Assembly (NCBI GenBank): GCA_033584155.1
Contig: CP138355.1
Coordinates: forward strand, 3,233,826 to 3,297,825
Source: Candidatus Electrothrix scaldis
Lineage (GTDB): Bacteria; Desulfobacterota; Desulfobulbia; Desulfobulbales; Desulfobulbaceae
Direction of reading: 5' to 3'
Length of the DNA: 64,000 nt
Shown here: piece after piece, positions 28,301-39,691 of the stretch
How the letters are laid out: each line of letters opens with the position of its first letter
Position numbering within the stretch: the first letter of the stretch is position 1
Position numbers and translations under genes: made by a program
The notes under the pieces: model-generated
What the model was told of the DNA's origin: nothing
What the model saw: the letters and a program-made list of their open reading frames with translations, nothing else
Database searches by the model: none

Positions 28301-29540
28301 ACCAACCCTGGTGGTTGCACCCTTATCGGTGACCTCCAACTGGGTGGAAGAGGCCCGGCGCTTTGCTCCAACCCTGAACGTGCTTCTGTTTGGATCTGGT
28401 AACCGCCAAGAGATGATTGATAATCTCCAGCCCTTTGACCTGGTGATTGTCAGCTATGGTTTGCTCCCCCTGGAGGCAGAGCTCCTGACTGAGCCGGACT
28501 GGCAGACCGTAGTTCTGGACGAGGCCCAGGCCATTAAGAACATGCAGACCAAGCGCTCTAAGGCAGCTATGCAGCTCAAGGCACAATTTCGCCTGATCAC
28601 CACAGGTACGCCCGTAGAGAACCATCTCGGCGAACTCTGGACTCTGTTCCATTTCCTCAATCCTGGGCTGCTCGGCCCCTTTAAGCGTTTTCAAGAAAGA
28701 TTTGCAGGCCCCATCGAACGGGACCAGGATGGCGCAGCCCGCAGTCGACTTCGTAAGCTCATCCGCCCCTTTATTCTCCGCCGCCTGAAAAGCGATGTTC
28801 TCCAGGAGTTACCGCCCAAGACTGAAATCAATCTTGAGGTGGAAATGAGTAAGGATGAGTTGGTGCTCTACGAGGCCCAGCGCATCAAGGCCCTGGAAAA
28901 CATCAGCAATCATGCTGATGATGAGGGTGCAGGCCAGCAGCATCTCCGTATCCTGGCCGAGATCATGAAGCTGCGTCGCCTCTGCTGTAATCCCTCCTTA
29001 GTCCTGCCGGACTGCGGGATCAGTAGCTCTAAGCTGAAGGTCTTTGCCGACACCCTGGAAGAGTTGCTCTCTAATAACCACAAGGCACTGATCTTTAGCC
29101 AGTTTGTCGATCATCTCCAGATCATTAGGGAGTTCCTTGAGACAAAGGGAATCAGCTACCAGTACCTTGATGGCTCCACCCCGGTGAAAAAGAGAAAGGA
29201 GAGGATCGCCAGTTTTCAGAATGGTGAAGGGGATGTCTTTCTGATCAGCCTCAAGGCTGGCGGGGCTGGCCTCAACCTGACAGCAGCAGATTATGTCATC
29301 CATATGGATCCCTGGTGGAACCCGGCTGTGGAAGATCAGGCATCAGACCGTGCGCACAGGATTGGACAGGAGCGGCCAGTCACGGTTTATCGGTTGGTGG
29401 TGAAGGATTCCATAGAGGAGCAGATTGTGGCCCTGCATAAGGAGAAAAGGGATCTGGCAGACAGCCTGCTGGAGGGCACGGATTCCGCTGGCAAGATTTC
29501 TGCCAAGGAGTTGTTGGGCTTGTTGCAGGGGCATCAGTGA
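25362..29540 (+). CDS. SNF2/RapA-family helicase (DEAD/DEAH superfamily 2)
   Basis: A 1392-residue protein. The C-terminal ~480 residues are a full Swi2/Snf2 ATPase. It has LRDYQKQGFHWLAQL, Walker A DDMGLGKTVQAL (near residue 960), the DEAQ box VVLDEAQAIKN and TGTPVENHLGELWTLFHFLNPG. These are followed by ALIFSQFVDHLQI, SLKAGGAGLNLTAADYVIHMDPWWNPAVEDQA and DRAHRIGQ. The ~900-residue N-terminal part has helical repeat-like segments (ARTYFAENLQLFKKM) and an internal region resembling the SNF2 accessory domain of bacterial homologues. Such proteins translocate on double-stranded DNA and displace bound protein, often RNA polymerase. A scrap of a related gene lies at 36,030. A convergent PP-loop gene ends 15 bases beyond its stop. 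Confidence 0.92.
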   Translation: MSTTQKISSDLEAKYLALDPPQKAMVRILAINVEPCATKRVLNCLKDLGFTCHATNAPYRAQDVQPLLKELVSKGLLDKSNKGLACPDSIRQTVVRDCLAHNEFSRIAEAVQTHMMDGRAPYQTYLTHYKQYARSMQMALFHGNSIEEVYSVLDKVDRYLPDTPPEESIFLHLLARPFSPQVIEAIKPEMRLSVLGLLLHATKIRLEPAGELIDYIQSSFGDSLYNKPESISLIDYFLLCGKTDNARALIEKLPQKGELERLSRTGWLSFLNGQYEEARTYFAENLQLFKKMSRKKKVFFQNEVGLIHLLSLLEGNDSTLLHQGIEYIDIVIKNHYRYAPLAETMKSVFQQQLGLDDTDTYRGALNIFDDNPLQFLIFMLILSWTDKAKVKGENAYLADIRDKAKKNGYLWLAAELSSLLAELNINKNSNTNQAKELHSSCGTTTCIGLVRKVPQWEKKLNGLLSLSDPSISQPVSAEQRLIWLFKYRPHSHSCSLTPKLQKITKKGTWTKGRQVGLKNLHNNHLTLDGLTDQDHRICQAIHQEYYSSGWYGYSSEYEFNYDQALPALVGHPLLFLEDKPDIQVELVLSEPKLEINEEKGKLRLALSPPPPSAQDETTKLIKDTPTRFKLYRFTEQHREIGKYLGKGMSIPKSGAKKAQQVVESLSSMVTVLSDLDGATEAETREADSRPHAHILPCHDGVQVEFLVKPCGDEGSSFRAGRGSKNVLTEIDGKKIQTVRDFAEEKKQLNDIISACPTLNRIKPVDNQWQVEDPEYALELLLELKNCDEALILEWPQGEKFSVRKETPSTAFSLQIKKERDWFKATGSLEINDELSLDLQKLLSMLDQGTGRFIQLDDGTFLSITKALRKRLEDLAAFSEKHGKGVRFSPLAALALDDLTEEAGQVKSDKAWKQHCKQLKEVVQPEVPGTLQAGLRDYQKQGFHWLAQLSHWEVGGCLADDMGLGKTVQALAAILLRAAQGPTLVVAPLSVTSNWVEEARRFAPTLNVLLFGSGNRQEMIDNLQPFDLVIVSYGLLPLEAELLTEPDWQTVVLDEAQAIKNMQTKRSKAAMQLKAQFRLITTGTPVENHLGELWTLFHFLNPGLLGPFKRFQERFAGPIERDQDGAARSRLRKLIRPFILRRLKSDVLQELPPKTEINLEVEMSKDELVLYEAQRIKALENISNHADDEGAGQQHLRILAEIMKLRRLCCNPSLVLPDCGISSSKLKVFADTLEELLSNNHKALIFSQFVDHLQIIREFLETKGISYQYLDGSTPVKKRKERIASFQNGEGDVFLISLKAGGAGLNLTAADYVIHMDPWWNPAVEDQASDRAHRIGQERPVTVYRLVVKDSIEEQIVALHKEKRDLADSLLEGTDSAGKISAKELLGLLQGHQ

Positions 29541-29555
29541 CGGCTCTGCCCCCAG

Positions 29556-30989
29556 CTATTTCGGCTCCAGTACAATGGCAAGTTCCCGCTTTGCCTCTCG
29601 GCTTTTTGCATGCAGGACAGTCAATAATTTTACTGACAGCACCGCCGGAATCGCCGACTCCTCATCATATACCGCAAGGTATTTATCCAGCACCTTTTTC
29701 CAGTCAAGAGGCTCGCATTCGTTTATAAAGGTCTGCATGGCCGCTCCCTCAAGCCCTTTACGACGGCACAGCTCAAAGGCCAGCTTGGCCTCATCCGTCT
29801 GGCCTATACATTCAAAGGGAGTATGCGCCTCCAATCCCAGCATCTGCCGGAAAGCCAGTTGGTTTTCCGGCAGATCAAAAAGATTGCACTGAAAAATACG
29901 CTCAACTTTCTGCGTGGGAAGATAAGCCATATAATTCAGCCAGACATACGCACATTTTGGACAACGTTTACACCAAGGTTTTTCGACATTACAGGAATGC
30001 GTTGCAGCGACCGCCTCCACATCGTCCTGCAATAAAGTAAATATCAGAACATCGTGTATCGGCTTGAGCAGGCTGAAGTAACTGACGTTCTTGATCAGCT
30101 CGGATCGGATATATGCATTGATCAGCTGTTCCGCTTCATAGGACTTGCCCCACTGATGATTGACCTCCTCACCGGTCTGTTCCCAGATCAGATTCCCTGT
30201 ATCCGCACTACGTTCATGCGCAAGTCCGATATACTGATATCCATGCTGCAGGACAAGTGGTAACACCCCGAAAACAGAACTTGGAGTTTCCGCAGCGGTA
30301 AGGGTACTGACCCCCAGTTCAGGGTGCAGGTCAAGGACGGGTGCATCCATAAAGTCGTCGTAGATCCAGTGCCTGTGCCGTTGTTCAGGGTGCAGATGGT
30401 CCAGAAGCTGATCAATCAGTGCATGTTGCCGAGGTGCTGTACCGTAAATGGAATGCGAATAGACATAGCTGGCATACGGAATCTCAGCCCGTTCAAGCAG
30501 ACGTAGAGAAACCAGACTGTCTTTGCCGCCCCCGCAGAAGGCGAGTAGCGGAATTGATCCGGGACTGCCCTCTACAGCTGCCGGTGAATGCTCCGCAACA
30601 GGCTGGACAGGAACAGGCCCTGCATAATCGGGCAGGTCATTTTCATAGCGCCACTGGGCCCAGACATGCTGATAGATCGTCTGCCAGAGCCGGACAAAGG
30701 AGTCAGTTTGGAGGTCGCTGAACGATCCTGTATCAAAATGCTTCGGTTTTAGGCTGATCAGCTTGTTGGCCTCAAAGGCCATAATATGAAAATAGAGCTT
30801 CCGCATGAACTCTCTGCCGAAACGGGTTTCAAGGACGTAAAAATCAACGTCTCCGTACCAGAGAGAGGTGGAAAAATGCAGATCATCCAGTCCGAAGCGA
30901 AAGGTAAGCTGTCGCCTGGACCGAGTGCAATCAAGAAATCTGAGCGTCTCTGTTCCAAGGGAATCAGTATTGTTTACAAGACCAGGCAT
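29556..30989 (-). CDS. PP-loop ATPase-like protein, possibly MurL-type epimerase, cotranscribed with the ergothioneine synthase fusion
   Basis: A 477-residue protein with a PP-loop (LLAFCGGGKDSLVSLRLL, around residue 150) of the adenine nucleotide alpha-hydrolase superfamily. Next come FGVLPLVLQHGYQYIGLAHERSAD and GEEVNHQWGKSYEAEQLI. A cysteine cluster CNVEKPWCKRCPKCAYVWL follows. This pattern reminds me of MurL (UDP-MurNAc-L-Ala-L-Glu epimerase), but I cannot confirm that by eye. A strong AAGGAG lies nine bases before the ATG. The gene starts 13 bases after the molybdopterin/desulfurase fusion gene ends, so the two are almost certainly one transcript. Alternative reading: a sulfur-transfer or nucleotide-activating partner of the fusion protein. 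Function should be treated as open. Confidence 0.75.
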   Translation of the reverse strand: MPGLVNNTDSLGTETLRFLDCTRSRRQLTFRFGLDDLHFSTSLWYGDVDFYVLETRFGREFMRKLYFHIMAFEANKLISLKPKHFDTGSFSDLQTDSFVRLWQTIYQHVWAQWRYENDLPDYAGPVPVQPVAEHSPAAVEGSPGSIPLLAFCGGGKDSLVSLRLLERAEIPYASYVYSHSIYGTAPRQHALIDQLLDHLHPEQRHRHWIYDDFMDAPVLDLHPELGVSTLTAAETPSSVFGVLPLVLQHGYQYIGLAHERSADTGNLIWEQTGEEVNHQWGKSYEAEQLINAYIRSELIKNVSYFSLLKPIHDVLIFTLLQDDVEAVAATHSCNVEKPWCKRCPKCAYVWLNYMAYLPTQKVERIFQCNLFDLPENQLAFRQMLGLEAHTPFECIGQTDEAKLAFELCRRKGLEGAAMQTFINECEPLDWKKVLDKYLAVYDEESAIPAVLSVKLLTVLHAKSREAKRELAIVLEPK

Positions 30990-31002
30990 ACCGGAACTCC
31001 TT

Positions 31003-34000
31003 TTATTTACAGGAAAGAAAGCGGATCGTGTTCTTCATTTCTTCAAGAACCTGAGCAAGTTCCTCAAGAACGGCATCAATCTCCTCTTCACCGGTCTGTT
31101 GCGACAGCGAAAAGCGGAGCGAACAATGTGCTTCATCTGCACTTTTGCCCATGGCGGTCAGCACATGCGTGGGTTCCGGCGAACCAGCCTTGCAGGCCGA
31201 TCCTGAAGAAATGGAGATCCCGTGCTGGTCCAAAGCAATAACAAGCGATTCCCCCCGAATTCCGGGAAAAATCATGTTTAAGGTATTGGGAAGCCTGTGC
31301 TCTGGATGCCCGTTCAGTTGCGCGTCCGGGACAAGCTTTTTGATACCCGCTTCGAGACGGTCTCTGAGCACGCACATTTTTTCAGAATCCTGCAGTCCAT
31401 ATGCAGTCAGTTCCGCTGCCTTGCCGAGACCGACTAGGGCGGCAACATTTTCTGTTCCAGCCCGAAGCCCACTTTCCTGCTTGCCTCCGTGAATCAGCGG
31501 TTCCAGCCGAACTCCCTTTTTCACATATAGCGCACCCACTCCCTTGGGGCCGTGAAATTTATGCCCTGACAGACTGAGCAGATCAACATCAAGCTCCTCC
31601 ACGTTCACCGGTATTTTGCCGATTGCCTGAACCGCATCTGTATGGAAAAGAATATTGCGCTGATGGGCAATTGCAGCCAGCTCCCTGATCGGCAGAATGG
31701 TTCCCACCTCGTTATTCGCCATCATGACAGAAACAAGGATGGTCTCATCTGTGATGGCCCTTCTCAGTTGTTCAGGGTCAAGCATGCCGAAAGCATCTAC
31801 AGGAAGAAACGTGACGCGGAAGCCGCAACGTTCTAAAAATCTGCACGTCTCCAGCACTGCCGGGTGCTCCACAGCCGAGGTGATGATATGTTTGCCCTGT
31901 TCCTGACAGGCAAATGCCGCTCCTTTCAGGGCCAGATTGTCAGCCTCGGACCCGCCGCCTGTAAAGATAATACGTTTGGGTTTGGTATGGAGCAGTCCTG
32001 CAAGCTGTCGTCGGGCCTTTTCCATAGCATCTCGAGCAGTACGGCCAGCCCGGTAAATACTGGACGGGTTGCCGTGGCTACGTTCCAGAAAGGGCTGCAT
32101 GGCCTCATGCACTGAAGAGGCAAGGTCTGTGGTTGCGTTGTTGTCAAGATAAATCTGCCTGGATTCAGACCGCTCCTGCTGAGGGGCGGAACTGTCTAAA
32201 TGCAGTTTTTTCTCCGCACTCTTCCGACTTGCCGCTGTTCCCTGCTCAATTCTGACAACTTCGCAGAGCAGGGCCTTGTACACGGGAAAACCGGAAATTT
32301 CGTCATAGTTGGAGAGATCTGTCAGCTCATTGACATTCGCCTGCTGCCAGGCCGCAGGGCCGACCGGAGTACCGCCTCCCATATTGGCCTCAACAGCTCC
32401 CTGCACAATATCCTCGCTCACCACAGCACGAAACTGCACACTGCCGCGAAGGGTACGTACTTCTACAAGGTCGCCGGTTTGGATTCCCCGGTCTTCCGCA
32501 TCAACCCTGTTGAGTTCCACACAGGGTTCGGGATTGTCCTTCAGGAGTCCGGGAATACCGTGATGCTGCGAACGGAAGTCTGTATGGGTTCTTGCGCCGG
32601 AGTTGAAAACCAGGGGAAAGGAACGGGCAAGGTCCGGCGCAGCCAGAGGCCCTTCCCTGGGTTCGGTATATTTCGGGAGCGGCTCATAGCCGTATTCGGA
32701 CAGCAATGAGGAGTGTATCTCGAATTTGCAGGTGGGCGTATCAAAACCCGGCCTGCCGTCCGACCGCAGGCTGCCTTTTTCCCATTTTCGGTACTCCATG
32801 GCCGGTGCAGGTAACTGCGCAATTCCTCCGGCTGCCCGGATCTCCTCCAGGGTAAAACCCGATCCCTGCAGGGCGAAACGGATCATGGCCTCTTCGGACT
32901 GCGGGAAAAGTTCCCCGTATCCCAGCCGTTCCGCAAGCTCCGCCATAATCAGGTAGTCGTTTCTTGCTTCTCCGACCGGCTCAATCAGTTTTTCCCGCAG
33001 GCGGAAGATCGGGCCGTAAACCACGTAGGAGTCTATCTCGAACATGGTGGTTGCCGGCAGGACAATATCCGCATAGGCCGCATCTGCGGTAAGCTGCCGG
33101 TCAATACAGACCAGGAAGTCCAGTTTGGATAGGGTTTCTCGCCAAAGCGGTGTCTGCGGCCAGGAGGTAAGGATGGACCCGCCGTCAATGAGCAGCCCGC
33201 GAATGCGATAGGGGTCTCCTTTGAGCACAGAGTCCACCAGTCCGATAGCATGGGACTCTCCCCGATATTTGCTGTACAAGGGAAAGGTATCCCTCGCAAC
33301 CGCACGGTCAAGGTTCGGATTCGCTTGGTTACAGGAACGGTTGATCGGGAAATGGCTGTTGAGCATAGCCAGCCCTATGCCGCCGGGAACATCCAGCTGC
33401 CCTGCTAGGGCCCAGGCAGTCAGCACGGCGCGGATCGCCTGGATGCCGCTGTTCGAGTATTCAAGTCCGGTGTACATCACCGGAGCACATCCTGCGGCCT
33501 GGACAATGTTGCGGGCAAGTTCCCGGACTGTATCGGCAGGCACCCCGGTGATCTCCGCAACCCTCTCCGGCGGAAAATGCTGAACATAGGTTCTGAGTTC
33601 ATCAAAACCGTGACACCAGTGCTGCACAAAATCTTCGTTCAGCAGCTCCTCCTCAATCAGCACCTCAATAATCCCCAGAGCCAGTGCCCCGTCAGTTCCC
33701 GGACGAATGGGAATCCAGCGGGCACCTGTGCGCAGAACCGTTTCTGTCCGACGCGGATCAATCACCACAATATCGGCTCCGCGCTTTGCTGCCGCTTCAA
33801 GCCGGAACATGTCAAGCGGCGGCGAATCCGTCGCCGGATTTGCCCCCCAGACAACAATCATCTCGGCATGTTCCAGATCGGTAAACATGTTGATGAGCAT
33901 GCGGCCCATGGTGACATGCGGCGCGATCATGGCAAAGGACACATAACAAAGCGCGCCCACGCCCATGGTATTGGGTGAACCAAAGGGGAAGAGGATATTT

Positions 34001-34398
34001 GATGCCGAGGAAACTGCTATATCCCTGGGCTGGTACATGTCGCAAAGCGACAGTTCAAAGGCACCGCGTCCGGTATAGATTGAGACAGCTTCCGGCCCTG
34101 ATTCTTCCTTGATCCGCTGGAGCTGCTCAACAATATGAGAATAGGCTTCATCCCAGGAGATACGCTCAAAGTTATATGTACCCTTAGGTCCGGTCCGGCG
34201 TAGAGGGTATTTCAGCCGATGTTCCGAGTAGACAATCTCGGCAGCATGCTCTCCTTTTTTGCAGATCATGCCCAGAGGATGGGATTCATCCGCCTGCATG
34301 CTGACGATTTTGCCGTTCTGCCGTCCGACTTTCACCCAGCATCCCGCAGGACAGATGCCGCAGATGCCTTTTCGATACTCAACCTGTTGCTCTTCCAA
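31003..34398 (-). CDS. Molybdopterin oxidoreductase fused to a cysteine desulfurase; probable metallopterin-dependent ergothioneine synthase
   Basis: A 1131-residue fusion. Residues 1 to ~725 are a DMSO-reductase-family subunit. A [4Fe-4S] site is formed by Cys13, Cys16, Cys20 and Cys46; GSPNTMGVGALC places a probable Mo/W ligand at Cys151; VVWGANPATD and VVIDPRRTET bind the pterin. Residues 749-1131 are a complete NifS/IscS-type desulfurase (IYLDNNATT, PLP lysine in SGHKFHGPKG near 947, catalytic cysteine in SSGSACKAG near 1069). It begins with TTG, preceded by GGGAG at the right distance; no ATG precedes the iron-sulfur motif. From memory, a fusion like this from Caldithrix abyssi inserts sulfur into trimethylhistidine without oxygen. 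The divergent EgtD-like gene, which would make the substrate, supports the same job here. No signal peptide, so cytoplasmic. Confidence 0.88.
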   Translation of the reverse strand: MEEQQVEYRKGICGICPAGCWVKVGRQNGKIVSMQADESHPLGMICKKGEHAAEIVYSEHRLKYPLRRTGPKGTYNFERISWDEAYSHIVEQLQRIKEESGPEAVSIYTGRGAFELSLCDMYQPRDIAVSSASNILFPFGSPNTMGVGALCYVSFAMIAPHVTMGRMLINMFTDLEHAEMIVVWGANPATDSPPLDMFRLEAAAKRGADIVVIDPRRTETVLRTGARWIPIRPGTDGALALGIIEVLIEEELLNEDFVQHWCHGFDELRTYVQHFPPERVAEITGVPADTVRELARNIVQAAGCAPVMYTGLEYSNSGIQAIRAVLTAWALAGQLDVPGGIGLAMLNSHFPINRSCNQANPNLDRAVARDTFPLYSKYRGESHAIGLVDSVLKGDPYRIRGLLIDGGSILTSWPQTPLWRETLSKLDFLVCIDRQLTADAAYADIVLPATTMFEIDSYVVYGPIFRLREKLIEPVGEARNDYLIMAELAERLGYGELFPQSEEAMIRFALQGSGFTLEEIRAAGGIAQLPAPAMEYRKWEKGSLRSDGRPGFDTPTCKFEIHSSLLSEYGYEPLPKYTEPREGPLAAPDLARSFPLVFNSGARTHTDFRSQHHGIPGLLKDNPEPCVELNRVDAEDRGIQTGDLVEVRTLRGSVQFRAVVSEDIVQGAVEANMGGGTPVGPAAWQQANVNELTDLSNYDEISGFPVYKALLCEVVRIEQGTAASRKSAEKKLHLDSSAPQQERSESRQIYLDNNATTDLASSVHEAMQPFLERSHGNPSSIYRAGRTARDAMEKARRQLAGLLHTKPKRIIFTGGGSEADNLALKGAAFACQEQGKHIITSAVEHPAVLETCRFLERCGFRVTFLPVDAFGMLDPEQLRRAITDETILVSVMMANNEVGTILPIRELAAIAHQRNILFHTDAVQAIGKIPVNVEELDVDLLSLSGHKFHGPKGVGALYVKKGVRLEPLIHGGKQESGLRAGTENVAALVGLGKAAELTAYGLQDSEKMCVLRDRLEAGIKKLVPDAQLNGHPEHRLPNTLNMIFPGIRGESLVIALDQHGISISSGSACKAGSPEPTHVLTAMGKSADEAHCSLRFSLSQQTGEEEIDAVLEELAQVLEEMKNTIRFLSCK

Positions 34399-34516
34399 GA
34401 AATGCTCCCTTTCACCTTATTTTTATCAATCACTTGACAAACAAAGCTCTTCGTGCTTGTTTCGTATATTTTCTATAAAAAAACAACTATAACGTATCAA
34501 GGAGGTCGCGACAACT

Positions 34517-35518
34517 ATGAAGAATATGAAGGAATATCTCAAAGAGGACCAACTTAATTTTTTCAGCTTGGAAGAATTCGCACCCCATGACGATCTGAAA
34601 AAACAGGTAAAGAAAGGATTCTCATCTCTTCATAAGTCGTTGTGTAGCGGCTGTTTCTATAATTATGAAGGTTCCCTGCTGTTTGACAAGATTTGTGAAT
34701 TGCCTGAATATTACCTCACAAGGACAGAGCTTGCAGTTCTTGAAGACAACATGGGAGATATTATCGCCGAGATACCGGAACAAGCCATTATCACGGAATT
34801 AGGTAACGGAAACCCTGTCAAAATCAAACTTTTTTTCGAGGCACTTTTTCAACGGCAGAACAGGGTGCAATATACGCCCATAGATATCTCCATACAATAT
34901 ATGGCTCAAAGTATGCGCAGGCTGATTGAACAGTATCCGAACCTTCAGATTACGGCAATCGGAGGTAGGTATGAGGATGGCATACACTTTCTGCAAAAAA
35001 CAGATGCTCCGAAATGCATCCTGTGGTTAGGATCGAGTATCGGCAACCTGACTGATAACAAAGCCGTCGATTTTCTTTCAAAGATCAGCAGAATGATGCA
35101 GCCGGAAGACAGTCTGCTTATCGGTATGGATATGATCAAGGACTGGGAAATCATAGATGCCGCATATAATGACGCCCAAGGTATTACGGCGGCATTCAAT
35201 ATGAACCTTCTCAGGAGAATCAATAACAATTTGGACGCAGACTTCAACCTTGCTCAATTTCGGCACGAACCGGTCTGTAACAAAGCTGAATCCCGGATGG
35301 AATCGTATATTACCAGCTGTAAGGATCAGCAGGTATCTATTCGGGATCTGGATATGGAGGTTTCCTTCAAAGAAAACGAACGCATCCATGTAGAAGTATC
35401 CTGTAAATATTCAGAGGAAAAAATTGCAACAATAGCGGATCGATCCGGTCTGCGTCTAAAATCCCGCTGGTTTGATACCAGAAAATGGTTTAGCCTCAAC
35501 CTCTTCAGCCCTGCCTGA
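34517..35518 (+). CDS. egtD: L-histidine N-alpha-methyltransferase (EgtD-like)
   Basis: A 333-residue SAM methyltransferase of the EgtD family. It has LFDKICELPEYYLTRTELAVLEDN (the family's substrate-loop region), ITELGNGNPVKIKLFFEAL in place of the usual ELGSGSSRKT, YTPIDIS, and the signature CILWLGSSIGNL. EgtD trimethylates histidine to hercynine, the precursor of ergothioneine. A good AAGGAGG stands 12 bases before the ATG. It is divergent from the molybdopterin/desulfurase fusion gene, with 118 bases between them, so both could be controlled together. The SAM loop deviates from actinobacterial EgtD, as in anaerobe homologues. Confidence 0.85.
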   Translation: MKNMKEYLKEDQLNFFSLEEFAPHDDLKKQVKKGFSSLHKSLCSGCFYNYEGSLLFDKICELPEYYLTRTELAVLEDNMGDIIAEIPEQAIITELGNGNPVKIKLFFEALFQRQNRVQYTPIDISIQYMAQSMRRLIEQYPNLQITAIGGRYEDGIHFLQKTDAPKCILWLGSSIGNLTDNKAVDFLSKISRMMQPEDSLLIGMDMIKDWEIIDAAYNDAQGITAAFNMNLLRRINNNLDADFNLAQFRHEPVCNKAESRMESYITSCKDQQVSIRDLDMEVSFKENERIHVEVSCKYSEEKIATIADRSGLRLKSRWFDTRKWFSLNLFSPA

Positions 35519-35525
35519 TCAGAAT

Positions 35526-35545
35526 AGCAGCTGCCGCTGCTTTCT
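35526..35545 (+). terminator. Weak hairpin after egtD
   Basis: A 6-bp perfect stem AGCAGC/GCTGCT with a TGCC loop and a short TTCTC tail starts eight bases after the egtD stop. The tail is poor, so termination here is only possible. Confidence 0.35.
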
Positions 35546-35576
35546 CATAGAAACTACAGATATAAACTTTTGCGCT

Positions 35577-35705
35577 ACCAACTTAAGCTGGGACAAAAGT
35601 TCGGGCTCTGAAGTTTCCAAACTCGGCAAAAGCCCCGTGAGGAATAGCCTCGCGACGGTCTTTGCAATTGCTTAATTTTGCAGGCTGTTCCACCTTAAGT
35701 TGGTA
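35577..35705. repeat. MITE-like inverted-repeat element 1
   Basis: A 129-base segment is bounded by a perfect 12-bp inverted repeat, TACCAACTTAAG/CTTAAGTTGGTA. Pairing continues inwards with two mismatches through TGGxACA, about 20 bp in all. The interior has no coding potential. The size and long terminal inverted repeats fit a non-autonomous element, but I see no clear target duplication. Confidence 0.6.
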
Positions 35706-35773
35706 ATTGTATCTTTATACTAATCGTTACACCTTGTAGTTATGTTGTGCAAATCAAAATTCATAGGATCTTC

Positions 35774-35883
35774 CTAGTGCTCCGTCATGGCTAAATTTTA
35801 GAGTTGCTGTTTCCATTTCAGGCCCGCAGATTGACCAGTTGCAATATACTCAACCCTAAATCTTAGATTTTACAAAGCACTAG
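35774..35883. repeat. Possible inverted-repeat element 2
   Basis: The ends pair as CTAGTGCT/AGCACTAG (8 bp perfect), and inside them TTTTAGAGTTG-like sequence faces CAACCCTAAA. It abuts and slightly overlaps the next element. The evidence is weaker than for its two neighbours. Confidence 0.4.
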
Positions 35884-35991
35884 TACACTCCGGCGTAAAT
35901 TATCCTATTCTTTTTAAGAGCCGCCTTTCCGCTCTTTGCAAAGAATTTCGCTTTAAAAAGCAGCGTGAAACTTACGCCGCAGTGTACTAGT
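35879..35991. repeat. MITE-like inverted-repeat element 3
   Basis: A 113-base segment has 20-bp terminal inverted repeats with one mismatch (ACTAGTACACTCCGGCGTAA at 35879-35898; reverse complement at 35972-35991). Inside, CTTTTTAAGAGC faces GCTTTAAAAAG, so almost the whole unit can fold into one long hairpin. It contains no gene and is a strong candidate for a small non-autonomous mobile repeat. Confidence 0.75.
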
Positions 35992-36029
35992 ATTCAGTCA
36001 TGCTATTTTTTAGGGTTGATGGCTCCAAA

Positions 36030-36093
36030 AAGAGCGCCCGGTCACGGTTTATCGCCTAGTGGTGAAGGGTTCCATTGAGGAACAGCTTGTTGC
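36030..36093 (+). pseudogene. Scrap of a SNF2 helicase gene
   Basis: About 62 bases read as ERPVTVYRLVVKGSIEEQLVA, the C-terminal end of a Swi2/Snf2 ATPase. They match the helicase gene at 25362..29540 (region near 29370) at about 84% of bases, by my count. Nothing upstream or downstream continues the homology. It is the decayed remnant of a paralogue or of a duplicated copy, next to the hairpin elements. Confidence 0.75.
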
Positions 36094-36222
36094 AGGGGGA
36101 GAAGTAGGTAGTGGTTATGCTAACCACTCTTTACTAGCCTGCTCAACCTTTTACCATTCCAGTGCTTTATCTAAAAAAACAGGCAGTTCTACATAATTAA
36201 AAACTGAAGGAGAATAACAATC

Positions 36223-36747
36223 ATGTCGGTCAGTGAATTAACTCAAGAGCAATTGCGGCGATTAAATACATTCACAGATGATTTAGTAAATATGGATTTA
36301 TCTGAAGAACAGCTCTTTTCCCTATTGGAAAAAATGACATCTCCAGAAGAACTTTATTATTTGCCGTGGTTAATAAACTGGGACGATGAACTCGCAGAGA
36401 AAACAATTGATTGGATATTAGAAAGCCCCTTGTGTGATGCGGGCACAGCTCTATCAATTTACTGGTTAAACCAACCCGTAGACTCAGCTGGGAAAAAAAT
36501 AGCAGATGCATACGATGACTGGGAACGACGGAAGATATCACTGCATCTTTCCATAGAACAGCGTATAAAATCTATGAGTTTTCCAAGCGCAAAAATACAA
36601 TACGATCCCAAATGGCACTGGGCGTACTGGAATGATGAAGATGTGGAAGACGAAGATATAGCAGGTATTCCAGAGTATATGAGAGCACCAACACCAGGGA
36701 GAAAGATTGCTGATATTCGGGAGTTACCCTGGAACGACATTGCCTGA
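36223..36747 (+). CDS. Hypothetical protein, DUF4274-like
   Basis: A 174-residue acidic protein. The segment YYLPWLINWDDELAEKTIDWILESPLCDAGTALSIYWLNQP resembles DUF4274, in which an Asn-Trp-Asp-Asp and a Cys-Asp-x-Gly-Thr-Ala-Leu are conserved; these small proteins are often near toxin-immunity genes. No signal peptide or membrane segment. AAGGAG lies ten bases before the ATG. It stands alone downstream of the repeat cluster and converges on the cobalamin operon. A role as immunity or accessory protein is speculation. Confidence 0.7.
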   Translation: MSVSELTQEQLRRLNTFTDDLVNMDLSEEQLFSLLEKMTSPEELYYLPWLINWDDELAEKTIDWILESPLCDAGTALSIYWLNQPVDSAGKKIADAYDDWERRKISLHLSIEQRIKSMSFPSAKIQYDPKWHWAYWNDEDVEDEDIAGIPEYMRAPTPGRKIADIRELPWNDIA

Positions 36748-36811: not shown

Positions 36812-37594
36812 CTACGTACTGCTCCTCCGATACTCATGGCTAAAGCCCGCATCATAGAGCTTGGACGCAGCCGTCGGATCATCGGATAAGGCCCGGCCCA
36901 CCACGATCATGGCGGTCTTACGGATGGCAGAGGCCTTGATCTTCTCGGCAATATCCGCCAAGGTGCCCCGAACTATCTGCTGATCCGGCCAGGAGGCCTT
37001 TTCCACCACCGCGATAGGGGTGTCTTCAGGATACCCTCCAGCCATAAGCTCCGCCACCACCTTGTCTATCATAGAGACAGAGAGAAAGATACACATGGAG
37101 GCCTGGATCGCGGCCAGATTGCGCAGGGACTCCTGCTCAGGGACTGAGGTTCGACCAGCCTGACGGGTGAAAATGACGGTCTGGGTGACCTCGGGCACAG
37201 TAAGTTCTACCTGTAGAGCCGCAGAGGCAGCGAGTGCTGAGCTCACTCCAGGTACCACCTCATAGGGAATATCCTGTGCATTCAGCCGCTGCATCTGCTC
37301 CCGGATTGCTCCGTAAATAGCAGGATCACCGGTGTGGAGGCGGACTGCCTTCCTGCCTGTACGCCAAGCATCGGTGAGCACAGCCAGCACTTCATCCAGG
37401 GTCATGGAGGCAGAATTATGGATCTCTGCCTGCACGCCATCCAGCAGGGCCGGATTCACTAAGCTACCAGCATAAACGATAACATCGGCTTCATCCAGCA
37501 GACGCCGTCCCTTAACAGTGATGAGCTCAGGATCGCCAGGTCCGGCCCCGAGAAAGACAACAGGGATGTTCGTTGTGTTACTCGCTGTGTTCAT
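36812..37594 (-). CDS. cobM: Precorrin-4/cobalt-precorrin-4 C11-methyltransferase
   Basis: A 260-residue tetrapyrrole methylase. PVVFLGAGPGDPELITVKGRRLLDEADVIVYAGSLV at the N-terminus and VRLHTGDPAIYGAIREQM form the SAM and substrate sites. VVPGVSSALAASAALQVELTVPEVTQTVIFTRQAGRT is diagnostic for CobM/CbiF. It methylates C11 of the corrin precursor. Its start overlaps the stop of the C20-methyltransferase gene by four bases, so translation is coupled. It is the last gene of a short minus-strand cobalamin operon. The CbiF name would apply if the pathway is the oxygen-independent one, which the organism's apparent lifestyle favours. Confidence 0.93.
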   Translation of the reverse strand: MNTASNTTNIPVVFLGAGPGDPELITVKGRRLLDEADVIVYAGSLVNPALLDGVQAEIHNSASMTLDEVLAVLTDAWRTGRKAVRLHTGDPAIYGAIREQMQRLNAQDIPYEVVPGVSSALAASAALQVELTVPEVTQTVIFTRQAGRTSVPEQESLRNLAAIQASMCIFLSVSMIDKVVAELMAGGYPEDTPIAVVEKASWPDQQIVRGTLADIAEKIKASAIRKTAMIVVGRALSDDPTAASKLYDAGFSHEYRRSST

Positions 37595-38352
37595 GCTGCG
37601 ACCTTACTTATCTGTTTTTTCCGAACCAGCAGGGTGGAGAAATAATGGAGCTCTTTCTCTGCTGCTTCGCGTATATCAGTATAGATGTGTTGTCCTTCCA
37701 TGCCGCAACGCTCCAGCAGCACCGCTTTGTCCGTCAGGCCCAACTCGTCCAGCACCTCAATCACCGCAGGTAAACGGCGAAAAACCTTCATCAGCACCAC
37801 AGCATCAGAGTTCTGGAGAATATCACGCAGGCGCGCATCATCAAAGGCAGCTGGTACAACAGAAAGCACATCATCTCCCAGTCCTAAAGGCGCATTAACC
37901 TGGGCAGAGCAGGCGGACATGGCGGTGATGCCTGGGATAATCGTCACCGGCAGCTCCTGACGAGCTTCCTGCAAGGTGTTGAGCAGGTAAAAAGAGGTGG
38001 AATAGAGCCCCGGATCGCCCAGAGTGGGAAAGGCAACATCCTCGCCCTGGTCAAGGCGCTCCAGCACAATCCGGGCAGCCTCCTGCCAGCCCTGCTGCAC
38101 CTCAGGGTCATGCTCCTGCTCCAGGCGAATCTTCTTCATGGGAAAGCGGACCTCCAGGACCTCCTTGTCTGCAAGCCCCACCATAGCCGAGGCAATCTGC
38201 AAGGCAGCACTGGCGCCATCGGCCTTTGCCTTGGGTGCCACCCAGACCTTGGTCTGCTCAAGGACCCGCACGGCCTTATAGGTCATAAGTTCCGGGTCAC
38301 CAGGTCCAACACCGACCAGATAAAGCCGTCCCTGCGATTTTCCTTGTTTCAT
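37591..38352 (-). CDS. cobI: Precorrin-2/cobalt-factor II C20-methyltransferase
   Basis: A 253-residue tetrapyrrole methylase. It has RLYLVGVGPGDPELMTYKAVRVLEQTKVWVAPKAKADGAS, VAFPTLGDPGLYSTSFYLL and IIPGITAMSACSAQVNAPLGLGDD, the pattern of CobI/CbiL. It adds the C20 methyl group early in corrin ring synthesis. It lies 94 bases after the CbiE-CbiT fusion gene and overlaps cobM by four bases. The anaerobic name cbiL is equally suitable. Confidence 0.93.
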   Translation of the reverse strand: MKQGKSQGRLYLVGVGPGDPELMTYKAVRVLEQTKVWVAPKAKADGASAALQIASAMVGLADKEVLEVRFPMKKIRLEQEHDPEVQQGWQEAARIVLERLDQGEDVAFPTLGDPGLYSTSFYLLNTLQEARQELPVTIIPGITAMSACSAQVNAPLGLGDDVLSVVPAAFDDARLRDILQNSDAVVLMKVFRRLPAVIEVLDELGLTDKAVLLERCGMEGQHIYTDIREAAEKELHYFSTLLVRKKQISKVAA

Positions 38353-38446
38353 GCAAAGCTCCGGGTCTGATACGCCGCAGCCTGCGGCATATCAGCAAAA
38401 CAGTTTCTTTATATCGTCACAGATATCCCTCCTCTGGGCGAGATAT

Positions 38447-39691
38447 CTATTTTTTTCCAGTTATTATGGTAATGGGATTGAGCAGGAGCCCCGGCTCCCC
38501 ATAATTGGTATAGCGTATTTCTTCACGGGTGACCGCCACAGTACGCGCGTCCACGTCCAGGCCATTGGATGACATCAGTAAGGGGGCCTGTTCCGCTGTC
38601 TTTTTCAAGACAGCACTGGCCACCATCCGGCCCTTTGGCGTCAGTCTTTTGGCACAGCGAGGAATAATCTCCACCAGCAAGCCCTTGCTGCCACCAATAA
38701 AGACCCGATCAGGATCAGGTAATTGAGGGAAGACATCCGGGGCCTGACCGCAGATCAGCTTAATATTATAAAGACCATAGCGAACAATATTGGCGCGGAT
38801 ATTCTCCCAGCCCTCTTCTTTCTGCTCAATAATATAGATGGTCAGATCCGGGCAAAGCCGGGCCGCCTCCACTGAGACAGAACCGGAACCACCGCCCACA
38901 TCCCAAAGAACCCCGCTTCGTGGTAAACGTAAGCGATGGAGAATCACAGCCCGGATCTCATCCTTGGTGATCAAGCCTCGGGAATGGGCAATCTCATCTT
39001 CCTGAAGGCCGAGGATAAAATCATCAGCGGTCTCCGCCCCCTCTGCCTCAGGTGCCTGCTGTTGTTCAATCAGCAACATATTGAGCGGTGAAAACTTCTG
39101 TCCAGCAATATCAGCCAAGGTACCGCTGCATATACGTTCGTCTTTCAACCCCAGGTTCTCGGCAACCCGAACCCGAATTCTCTTTTTCCGGACATTATCC
39201 TTATGCTCTTCCAGGACCGTCAGCAATTCCTGGGCTATTCGGTCAGGACTATTGCGATGATCTGTAAAGAGCATCACCTTGGGCTTACCCAAAATCTTGC
39301 CAGCAATGTCCTTGGCCGAGCGACCATGCAAACTGATCAGAGGCAGGTCGTCCCAAGGCAGCTTGAAGCGGGTACAGGCCAGCTGCACAGCAGACAGGGC
39401 CGGAGTGATATGTACCAGCTCAGGACCGAAACGTTCCAGTAGGGTCCGGCCTATACCGAAAAAGAGCGGATCACCAGAGGCCAGCACCGCGACATCGCCC
39501 TCATTCAGGGCCACTGCCAGTTCAAAGACCATCTCTTCCACCGGCGCAACAGGGATCCGGTGGATCTCCATGCCCTTGAGCAGAGCCTGATGGCGTGAGG
39601 ACACCACCACAGCACTGCATGACGCTATCTTGCGCAGCTGCTCCTTGGGTAACTCTTCACCACTGACACCAAATATGAAAACTTCAGACAT
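38447..39691 (-). CDS. cobL: Precorrin-6Y C5,15-methyltransferase / decarboxylase (CbiE-CbiT fusion)
   Basis: A 414-residue fusion. Residues 1-~205 are a CbiE tetrapyrrole methylase (VSGEELPKEQLRKIASCSAVVVSSRHQALL, VAVLASGDPLFFGIGRTLLERF, PALSAVQLACTRFKLPWDD). Residues ~215-414 are CbiT, a Rossmann methyltransferase (ITKDEIRAVILHRLRLPRSGVLWDVGGGSGSVSVEAARL, VFIGGSKGLLVEII). Together they methylate C5 and C15 and remove the C12 acetate carboxyl. It heads the three-gene cobalamin operon. Other steps of the pathway are not in the window. Confidence 0.93.
   Translation of the reverse strand: MSEVFIFGVSGEELPKEQLRKIASCSAVVVSSRHQALLKGMEIHRIPVAPVEEMVFELAVALNEGDVAVLASGDPLFFGIGRTLLERFGPELVHITPALSAVQLACTRFKLPWDDLPLISLHGRSAKDIAGKILGKPKVMLFTDHRNSPDRIAQELLTVLEEHKDNVRKKRIRVRVAENLGLKDERICSGTLADIAGQKFSPLNMLLIEQQQAPEAEGAETADDFILGLQEDEIAHSRGLITKDEIRAVILHRLRLPRSGVLWDVGGGSGSVSVEAARLCPDLTIYIIEQKEEGWENIRANIVRYGLYNIKLICGQAPDVFPQLPDPDRVFIGGSKGLLVEIIPRCAKRLTPKGRMVASAVLKKTAEQAPLLMSSNGLDVDARTVAVTREEIRYTNYGEPGLLLNPITIITGKK

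Follow-up and report, generated by a model that had tools for sequence, protein, structure and literature searches.

The window analysed here, a 64,000-nucleotide stretch of Candidatus Electrothrix scaldis (assembly GCA_033584155.1, contig CP138355.1, positions 3,233,826 to 3,297,825), contains a locus that, judging by its genes, very probably makes ergothioneine without oxygen. A metallopterin-dependent ergothioneine synthase (MES) and the histidine methyltransferase EgtD are encoded there divergently, in a genome that consists of one contig of 5,089,909 bases. The MES/EgtD pair is an additional member of a published enzyme class, and its pathway is known (Beliaeva & Seebeck 2022). What we add is a prediction concerning one cysteine of MES, Cys119, and a MurL-like gene linked to the pair, whose presence turns the locus into a variant. 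The core of the locus is composed as follows.

31003..34398, minus strand: MES, 1131 residues, a bis-molybdopterin guanine dinucleotide (Mo/W) module followed by a NifS-type cysteine desulfurase (Pfam and NCBIfam domains, identity to the L157 protein, 87-frame alignment, Foldseek)
34399..34516, no strand: divergent MES-EgtD intergenic region, 118 bases (sequence)
34517..35518, plus strand: EgtD, histidine N-alpha-methyltransferase, 333 residues (TIGR03438 score, pocket residues)

Open reading frames are found at both gene positions, where a preliminary description of this DNA had placed them. The frame of MES starts with TTG, preceded by AAAGGGAG. Its single chain holds, in Pfam order, Fe4S4, molybdopterin oxidoreductase, dinucleotide-binding and class-V aminotransferase (desulfurase) domains. 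This order and the residues listed below confirm the earlier account of one 1131-residue fusion with a [4Fe-4S] site, Cys151 and a NifS-type desulfurase; the sequence and the TIGR03438 match likewise bear out the divergent EgtD-like gene 118 bases away.

Conservation was assessed on 99 fused candidates, 19 including the window and 80 from a named collection, which yielded 87 frames of the expected length; the 12 candidates excluded from the alignment were short (7), over-long (3) or lacked a captured frame (2). Among these loci, L065 and L082 represent one and the same genome, and a single metagenome-assembled genome (MAG) is the source of both L150 and L161. The functional positions of MES, all on the minus strand, are these:

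34261..34362, minus strand: [4Fe-4S] cysteines C13, C16, C20 and C46 (86, 86, 86 and 87 of 87 frames)
34042..34044, minus strand: Cys119 (Cys121 in L157), typical of fused MES (cysteine in 86 of 87 fused proteins and 1 of 14 unfused relatives)
33946..33948, minus strand: Cys151 (Cys153 in C. abyssi), the probable ligand of Mo/W (87 of 87 frames; number match in L157)
31069..32154, minus strand: desulfurase module, Pfam Aminotran_5, residues 749-1110 (E 1.6e-85)
31558..31560, minus strand: Lys947, the pyridoxal phosphate (PLP) lysine, C. abyssi Lys952 (86 of 87 frames; the remaining row has X)
31192..31194, minus strand: Cys1069 (Cys1074 in C. abyssi), the catalytic cysteine of the desulfurase (86 of 87 frames)
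31009..31011, minus strand: Cys1130 (Cys1135 in C. abyssi), the relay cysteine, next to last in the chain (84 of 87 frames)

Two other cysteines, Cys712 and Cys1092, are kept in 83 and 82 of the frames. All 14 unfused relatives retain Cys151 and Cys712, but only one of them has a cysteine at position 119; this contrast makes Cys119 a candidate sulfur-receiving thiol, which we propose to lie near the metal site of MES. The residues probed in the accessible text of PMC9516567 do not include Cys119.

The closest point of reference is the MES of Caldithrix abyssi. Comparison of the window fusion with the Caldithrix enzyme, a check suggested in the preliminary description, gives 62% identity over a 1127-column alignment with the protein of L157, 1136 residues long and taken from a record of Caldithrix abyssi HyVt-577. 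L157 has Cys14, 17, 21, 48, 153, 1074, 1097 and 1135 and Lys952, that is, all nine residues at the numbers given in PMC9516567, and the published residues are present in the window protein as well. Since its residues stand at these numbers, the L157 protein is, by sequence, the enzyme studied in that paper or a near twin. The C. abyssi-type enzyme produces ergothioneine in E. coli (Beliaeva & Seebeck 2022, PMC9516567), which matches what the earlier account had stated of a C. abyssi fusion converting trimethylhistidine to ergothioneine. Lys952, Cys1074, Cys1135 and Cys153 are required, a drop of about two-fold is seen without Cys1097, and sulfur transfer occurs within one chain, as far as the accessible text describes (PMC9516567). 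The window protein shows the sequence marks of the class, namely the fusion, the metal-ligand cysteine, the PLP lysine, the persulfide cysteine and the relay cysteine, and like other members it is encoded together with a histidine-specific methyltransferase.

The two systems are alike in domain order, in length (1131 versus 1136 residues), in the nine residues and in having EgtD in the genome. They differ in layout: the window EgtD is divergent and 118 bases away, whereas the MES of L157 lies at a contig end with EgtD on another contig. The window MES is in addition followed by the MurL-like gene. As for the EgtB/EgtD and the rhodanese-type EanB pathways, they share with the window EgtD as first step and ergothioneine as end product (PMC9516567, as far as accessible); no EgtB over cut-off is present in the window genome, in which EanB was not searched for.

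A structure model of MES built from 33 sequences has a mean predicted local distance difference test (pLDDT) of 76.6 and a predicted template modelling score of 0.64. Its best Foldseek match is acetylene hydratase 2e7z (E 5.3e-47), and its desulfurase part matches Nfs1/IscS; these folds agree with the description in the accessible part of PMC9516567, where acetylene hydratase is a named relative of the N-terminal part. In contrast to MES, acetylene hydratase has no desulfurase and hydrates acetylene. Because pLDDT falls below 50 at Cys151, Cys1069, the C-terminus and beside Cys119, we claim no relay geometry from the model.

EgtD scores 323.7 bits with the NCBIfam equivalog TIGR03438, above the cut-off of 290.9. 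Ten of the eleven pocket positions checked are named for M. tuberculosis EgtD in the accessible part of PMC8593015. A single offset aligns all eleven pocket letters with the 4uy6 chain. The eleventh position, Met252, we take to belong to the pocket as well. Nine are identical in the window protein: Y48, F56, Y65, N177, A216, Y217, T224, E293 and S295, corresponding to reference residues Tyr39, Phe47, Tyr56, Asn166, Ala205, Tyr206, Thr213, Glu282 and Ser284. The histidine-pocket set Tyr56, Asn166, Tyr206, Glu282 and Ser284 is thereby complete, as Tyr65, Asn177, Tyr217, Glu293 and Ser295. The EgtD structures 4uy5, 4uy6 and 4pim, presumably from M. smegmatis, belong to the same family and share the nine positions; the window enzyme differs from them in Ser174 and Ser263, and in having an oxygen-independent partner enzyme.

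The proposed pathway would begin with EgtD, which is expected to convert histidine to trimethylhistidine in three methylations. The desulfurase module of MES would draw sulfur from cysteine with the help of the PLP lysine Lys947, forming a persulfide on Cys1069. By analogy with the in-chain transfer printed for C. abyssi MES, we infer that sulfur would then move along the same chain, via Cys1130 and possibly Cys119, until it reaches the Mo/W site bound by Cys151; this site would set it on the imidazole ring. The MurL-like enzyme would probably adenylate the carboxylate of ergothioneine or trimethylhistidine at the expense of ATP.

MES and EgtD also occur together. In a panel of 57 relatives, the window genome included, the full MES fusion is found in six genomes and an over-cut-off EgtD in six, and they are the same six; the chance of this overlap is 2.8e-8 assuming independent genomes, which is not fully the case. 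One further genome, G040, has an EgtD match below cut-off and no fusion. EgtD adjoins MES in all 16 fused loci with flanks (L052-L067). A scan of the named collection found 404 relatives, of which the best 80 loci were analysed. There the desulfurase lies in the same frame in 80/80 (by tblastn, with some frames interrupted or leaving the contig), while 32 have EgtD in their flank. Whole-genome searches covered 30 of the other 48, leaving 18 outside, and found EgtD over cut-off in 25; many of these genomes are MAGs. A 31st genome searched is that of L136, which has EgtD in its flank. The window MES is 83% identical to that of G034, from another genus of the same family, and the scan also found MES in Candidatus Electronema sp. 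KV (L082), a cable bacterium.

Several observations weigh against the proposed reading of the locus. EgtD is absent from the fetched flank in 48 of the best 80 named loci, and the whole-genome searches leave four MES genomes with no EgtD and one with a partial match. Unfused, more distant relatives of MES exist, at 44-51% identity. Three frames lack Cys1130 (L054, L114 and L150, the last of which reaches its contig end), and the NifS model TIGR03402 gives MES 523.9 bits, slightly below its cut-off of 530.75. In EgtD, two pocket positions are changed, Thr163 to Ser174 and Met252 to Ser263. Finally, hardly any of the other MES genomes examined carries the MurL-like gene.

Could the metallopterin module be an ordinary reductase or dehydrogenase, with a fused desulfurase that matures its own cofactor and an EgtD adjacent by coincidence? 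Its NCBIfam hits do include models of formate dehydrogenase alpha and of thiosulfate reductase, and some unfused relatives have no EgtD in the stretches fetched. Both hits nevertheless fall far under the cut-offs of these equivalogs (290.2 versus 666.25 bits and 249.8 versus 694 bits), and we regard the idea as extremely improbable. The preliminary description had counted against its own proposal closest relatives among formate dehydrogenases or thiosulfate reductases with no conserved EgtD link, or an EgtD devoid of histidine-binding residues. What we find instead are MES-type fusions as relatives (the best 80 of 404), EgtD beside MES in 16/16 loci and tracking it across the 57 genomes, and 9 of 11 pocket positions kept. 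Another reading, that the organism mainly remodels imported ergothioneine, with MES exchanging sulfur or running in reverse and net synthesis minor, draws on the C. abyssi enzyme, which in E. coli swaps sulfur between ergothioneine and trimethylhistidine (PMC9516567, accessible part). An adjacent EgtD with a conserved pocket and intact desulfurase residues speak against it, and it seems very unlikely. Oxygen-independent synthesis of ergothioneine, as proposed earlier, is better supported, by the identity to L157, the residues and the co-occurrence of MES and EgtD.

The third gene lies within the span of the earlier finding (29556..35518) and is intact, yet went unmentioned in its text. Its features are the following:

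30990..31002, minus strand: 13-base spacer from the MES stop to the MurL-like ATG, with a ribosome-site-like AAGGAG (sequence)
29556..30989, minus strand: MurL-superfamily enzyme with a PP-loop-like motif, 477 residues, 3' of MES; proposed accessory gene of the ergothioneine locus (weak NCBIfam MurL match, EgtD proximity, own clade)
30516..30533, minus strand: GGGKDS, residues 153-158 of the MurL-like protein (G-x-G-K-D-S invariant across all ten MurL-superfamily proteins of the alignment)
29952..29993, minus strand: metal-site-like four-cysteine motif C333, C340, C343 and C346 of the MurL-like enzyme (present without exception in the ten aligned proteins)

The AAGGAG and the 13-base gap after the MES stop make it likely that the MurL-like gene shares one operon with MES. 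Promoter-like sites across 29000-36300 are no more frequent than in shuffled sequence, and a terminator scan of the region likewise stays near chance. Between the window genome and the near-identical G005, the ratio of nonsynonymous to synonymous substitution rates is 0.105 for MES, 0.081 for EgtD and 0.187 for the MurL-like gene. All three genes are under purifying selection between these genomes, so the locus is more than a chance arrangement.

The sole curated NCBIfam match of the MurL-like protein is MurL itself, at 129.5 bits versus a cut-off of 700, far from the equivalog. Both motifs of the superfamily, G-x-G-K-D-S and the four cysteines, are present in it, as seen in an alignment of ten proteins that includes a Xanthomonas MurL. 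We take GGGKDS to be a PP-loop. The window protein shares with MurL the motifs G-x-G-K-D-S, E-x-S-A, H-Q-x-x-K, S-C-N...W-C-x-x-C-x-K-C and E-C-x-G; it is, in contrast, only 24% identical and placed in a separate clade, and it is flanked by MES and an SNF2 helicase instead of murD2 (no search for MurD2 was made in the rest of the genome). MurL consumes ATP with formation of AMP, and adenylation of the alpha-carboxylate of its substrate has been proposed (PMC8788868, accessible part). A single-sequence fold model of the window protein was unusable (mean pLDDT 34.3), and nothing is claimed from it. The PDB gave no sequence match at E up to 1 and viral contigs no relatives, and four plasmid records contain MurL-superfamily matches (27-30% identity), one annotated murL.

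The gene is rare. Matches occur in 2/57 relatives, namely the window genome and G005, in 1/297 genomes of the phylum sample, again the window genome, and in 2/63 other MES genomes: G471 (L136, from a Thiotrichaceae record), at 57% identity, and a remote one at 32%. In the order of G471, matches are present in 12/42 genomes, five of them close and including G471 (53-60%); in its class sample, at E <= 1e-40, the only match among 369 genomes is G471. EgtD is 69 to 4826 bases from the close copy in these five other genomes, with varying gene orders, and all seven close copies found lie less than 5 kb from EgtD. Four of the five loci have EgtB over cut-off and no MES in the genome (E <= 1e-50); the fifth (L136/L210) has MES in the locus. 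As to sampling, five of the seven genomes come from one order, the other two are near-identical, and G471 was found via MES. Around ten remote homologues, most with flanks of only about 1-2 kb, there is no EgtD, and a Xanthomonas MurD2 query finds no match in loci of MurL-type homologues, most of them with short flanks.

In the tree of these proteins, the seven copies linked to ergothioneine genes group together (98/99) and are separated from MurL (100/100); G513 carries both kinds (L192 and L203). Their EgtD partners fall into two separate clades, so the association with EgtD arose at least twice or outlived a change of EgtD. The copy of the Thiotrichaceae MAG (L190, or L210 13815-15056) has a TGA within the matched stretch, 5' of the open frame, which leaves its N-terminus uncertain.

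Since EgtD and MES suffice for synthesis, the MurL-like enzyme is surplus to it, and we infer that it would rather act on a substrate or product of the pathway, ergothioneine or trimethylhistidine. Homology to MurL suggests that it probably adenylates the carboxylate of one of these, and the next step could then be either epimerisation of the alpha-carbon or transfer to an amine. We tentatively propose, at somewhat less than even chances, that it founds a new ergothioneine-tailoring family of enzymes that adenylate and then epimerise or conjugate, giving a derivative of ergothioneine, and that were recruited to EgtB routes and MES routes alike, in the Thiotrichaceae-containing order and in this probable cable bacterium. 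That the gene is instead a passenger, or a cell-wall epimerase outside ergothioneine metabolism, is a real if rather doubtful prospect. Its absence from 55/57 relatives, its single close copy among 63 other MES genomes and the origin of five of seven close-copy genomes in one order agree with a passenger, and Xanthomonas MurL is a peptidoglycan enzyme (PMC8788868, accessible part). Against this stand the score far below the MurL cut-off and the separate clade. A glutamate racemase over cut-off in the window genome means in addition that cell-wall D-Glu does not need MurL. Moreover, seven of seven close copies stay near EgtD, in company of two unrelated sulfur-insertion enzymes and two EgtD lineages, and 0/10 remote homologues do so within their mostly short flanks.

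The histories of MES and EgtD differ. In a tree of 86 MES rows, with Shimodaira-Hasegawa-like approximate likelihood ratio test (SH-aLRT) support, the window groups with G005 and Ca. Electronema (100) within a 60-row clade of many phyla (100); none of the 16 other rows of the window's phylum, G017 of the same family among them, falls in the latter. In the EgtD tree, the window and Ca. Electronema group with anammox bacteria (Scalindua, Brocadiaceae), one Fermentibacteria and one Calditrichota bin (99). Transfer of both genes as one cassette is unsupported, as the trees disagree (SH-aLRT support only); MES and EgtD seem to have been brought together from separate origins. Horizontal transfer likely lies behind this conflict, which bin contamination or sampling can mimic. 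Viral contigs contain no relatives of MES, and across 96 MES loci plus the window no further shared partner emerges: gene clusters present in at least four loci reach at most ten and look common by eye.

The main text of the Ca. Electrothrix scaldis paper (PMC10926707) does not mention ergothioneine. Our literature search, which did not cover supplements such as Table S1 of PMC9516567, returned no paper joining cable bacteria with ergothioneine; it found none on ergothioneine with MurL or with Thiotrichales, and a single off-subject listing with Desulfobulb. The MES/EgtD pair extends the published oxygen-free pathway to a probable cable bacterium. Filaments of cable bacteria bridge oxic and anoxic sediment, and ergothioneine may serve cells that meet both conditions. 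A MurL-like enzyme associated with two unrelated sulfur-insertion chemistries suggests further processing of ergothioneine in some bacteria. The cellular use of ergothioneine is a long-standing question, for which the locus offers a small testable gene set; within the sulfur relay, Cys119 is a candidate step open to testing.

MES is said to be encoded exclusively in anaerobes (PMC9516567, accessible part). Fused MES in records of Rhodospirillaceae (L103), Alteromonadaceae (L121), Thiohalomonas denitrificans (L148) and Thiodiazotropha (L122) sits awkwardly with this statement; MAG titles may mislead.

Unfused MES-like proteins of 735-741 residues, 48-51% identical to the N-terminal part, are encoded at L068-L073 (G435, G091, G301, G088, G258 and G184). 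They keep the metal cysteine, have lysine in place of Cys119 and carry no desulfurase. A related protein of 313-318 residues directly adjoins them in 6/6 loci, with SAM (S-adenosylmethionine)-methyltransferase domains and a Trm112p match according to Pfam (3/6, in one below cut-off), and together they may possibly be a new methyltransferase/Mo-W enzyme pair. By eye, hisG-like and engB-like genes adjoin both the unfused gene of L073 (4036-5566) and the Ca. Electronema MES (L065 6778-8273).

In three of the four EgtB/EgtD/MurL-like loci we find a radical SAM protein of 501-575 residues (Pfam; below cut-off in L205), at L204 4793-6397, L205 9977-11482 and, in two copies, L206 5433-7004 and 7113-8840. 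These proteins are 73-76% identical, and none was found in L207, L210 or the window. A P-type ATPase gene is present at L205 6563-8569 (Pfam), with similar genes by eye in L206 and L210. In the window itself, a DUF4274 protein (Pfam) is encoded 3' of EgtD at 36223-36747 on the plus strand, followed at 36812-39691 on the minus strand by genes that, by eye, resemble those for cobalamin (precorrin methylase); of these, 36812-37594 has a TP_methylase Pfam match.

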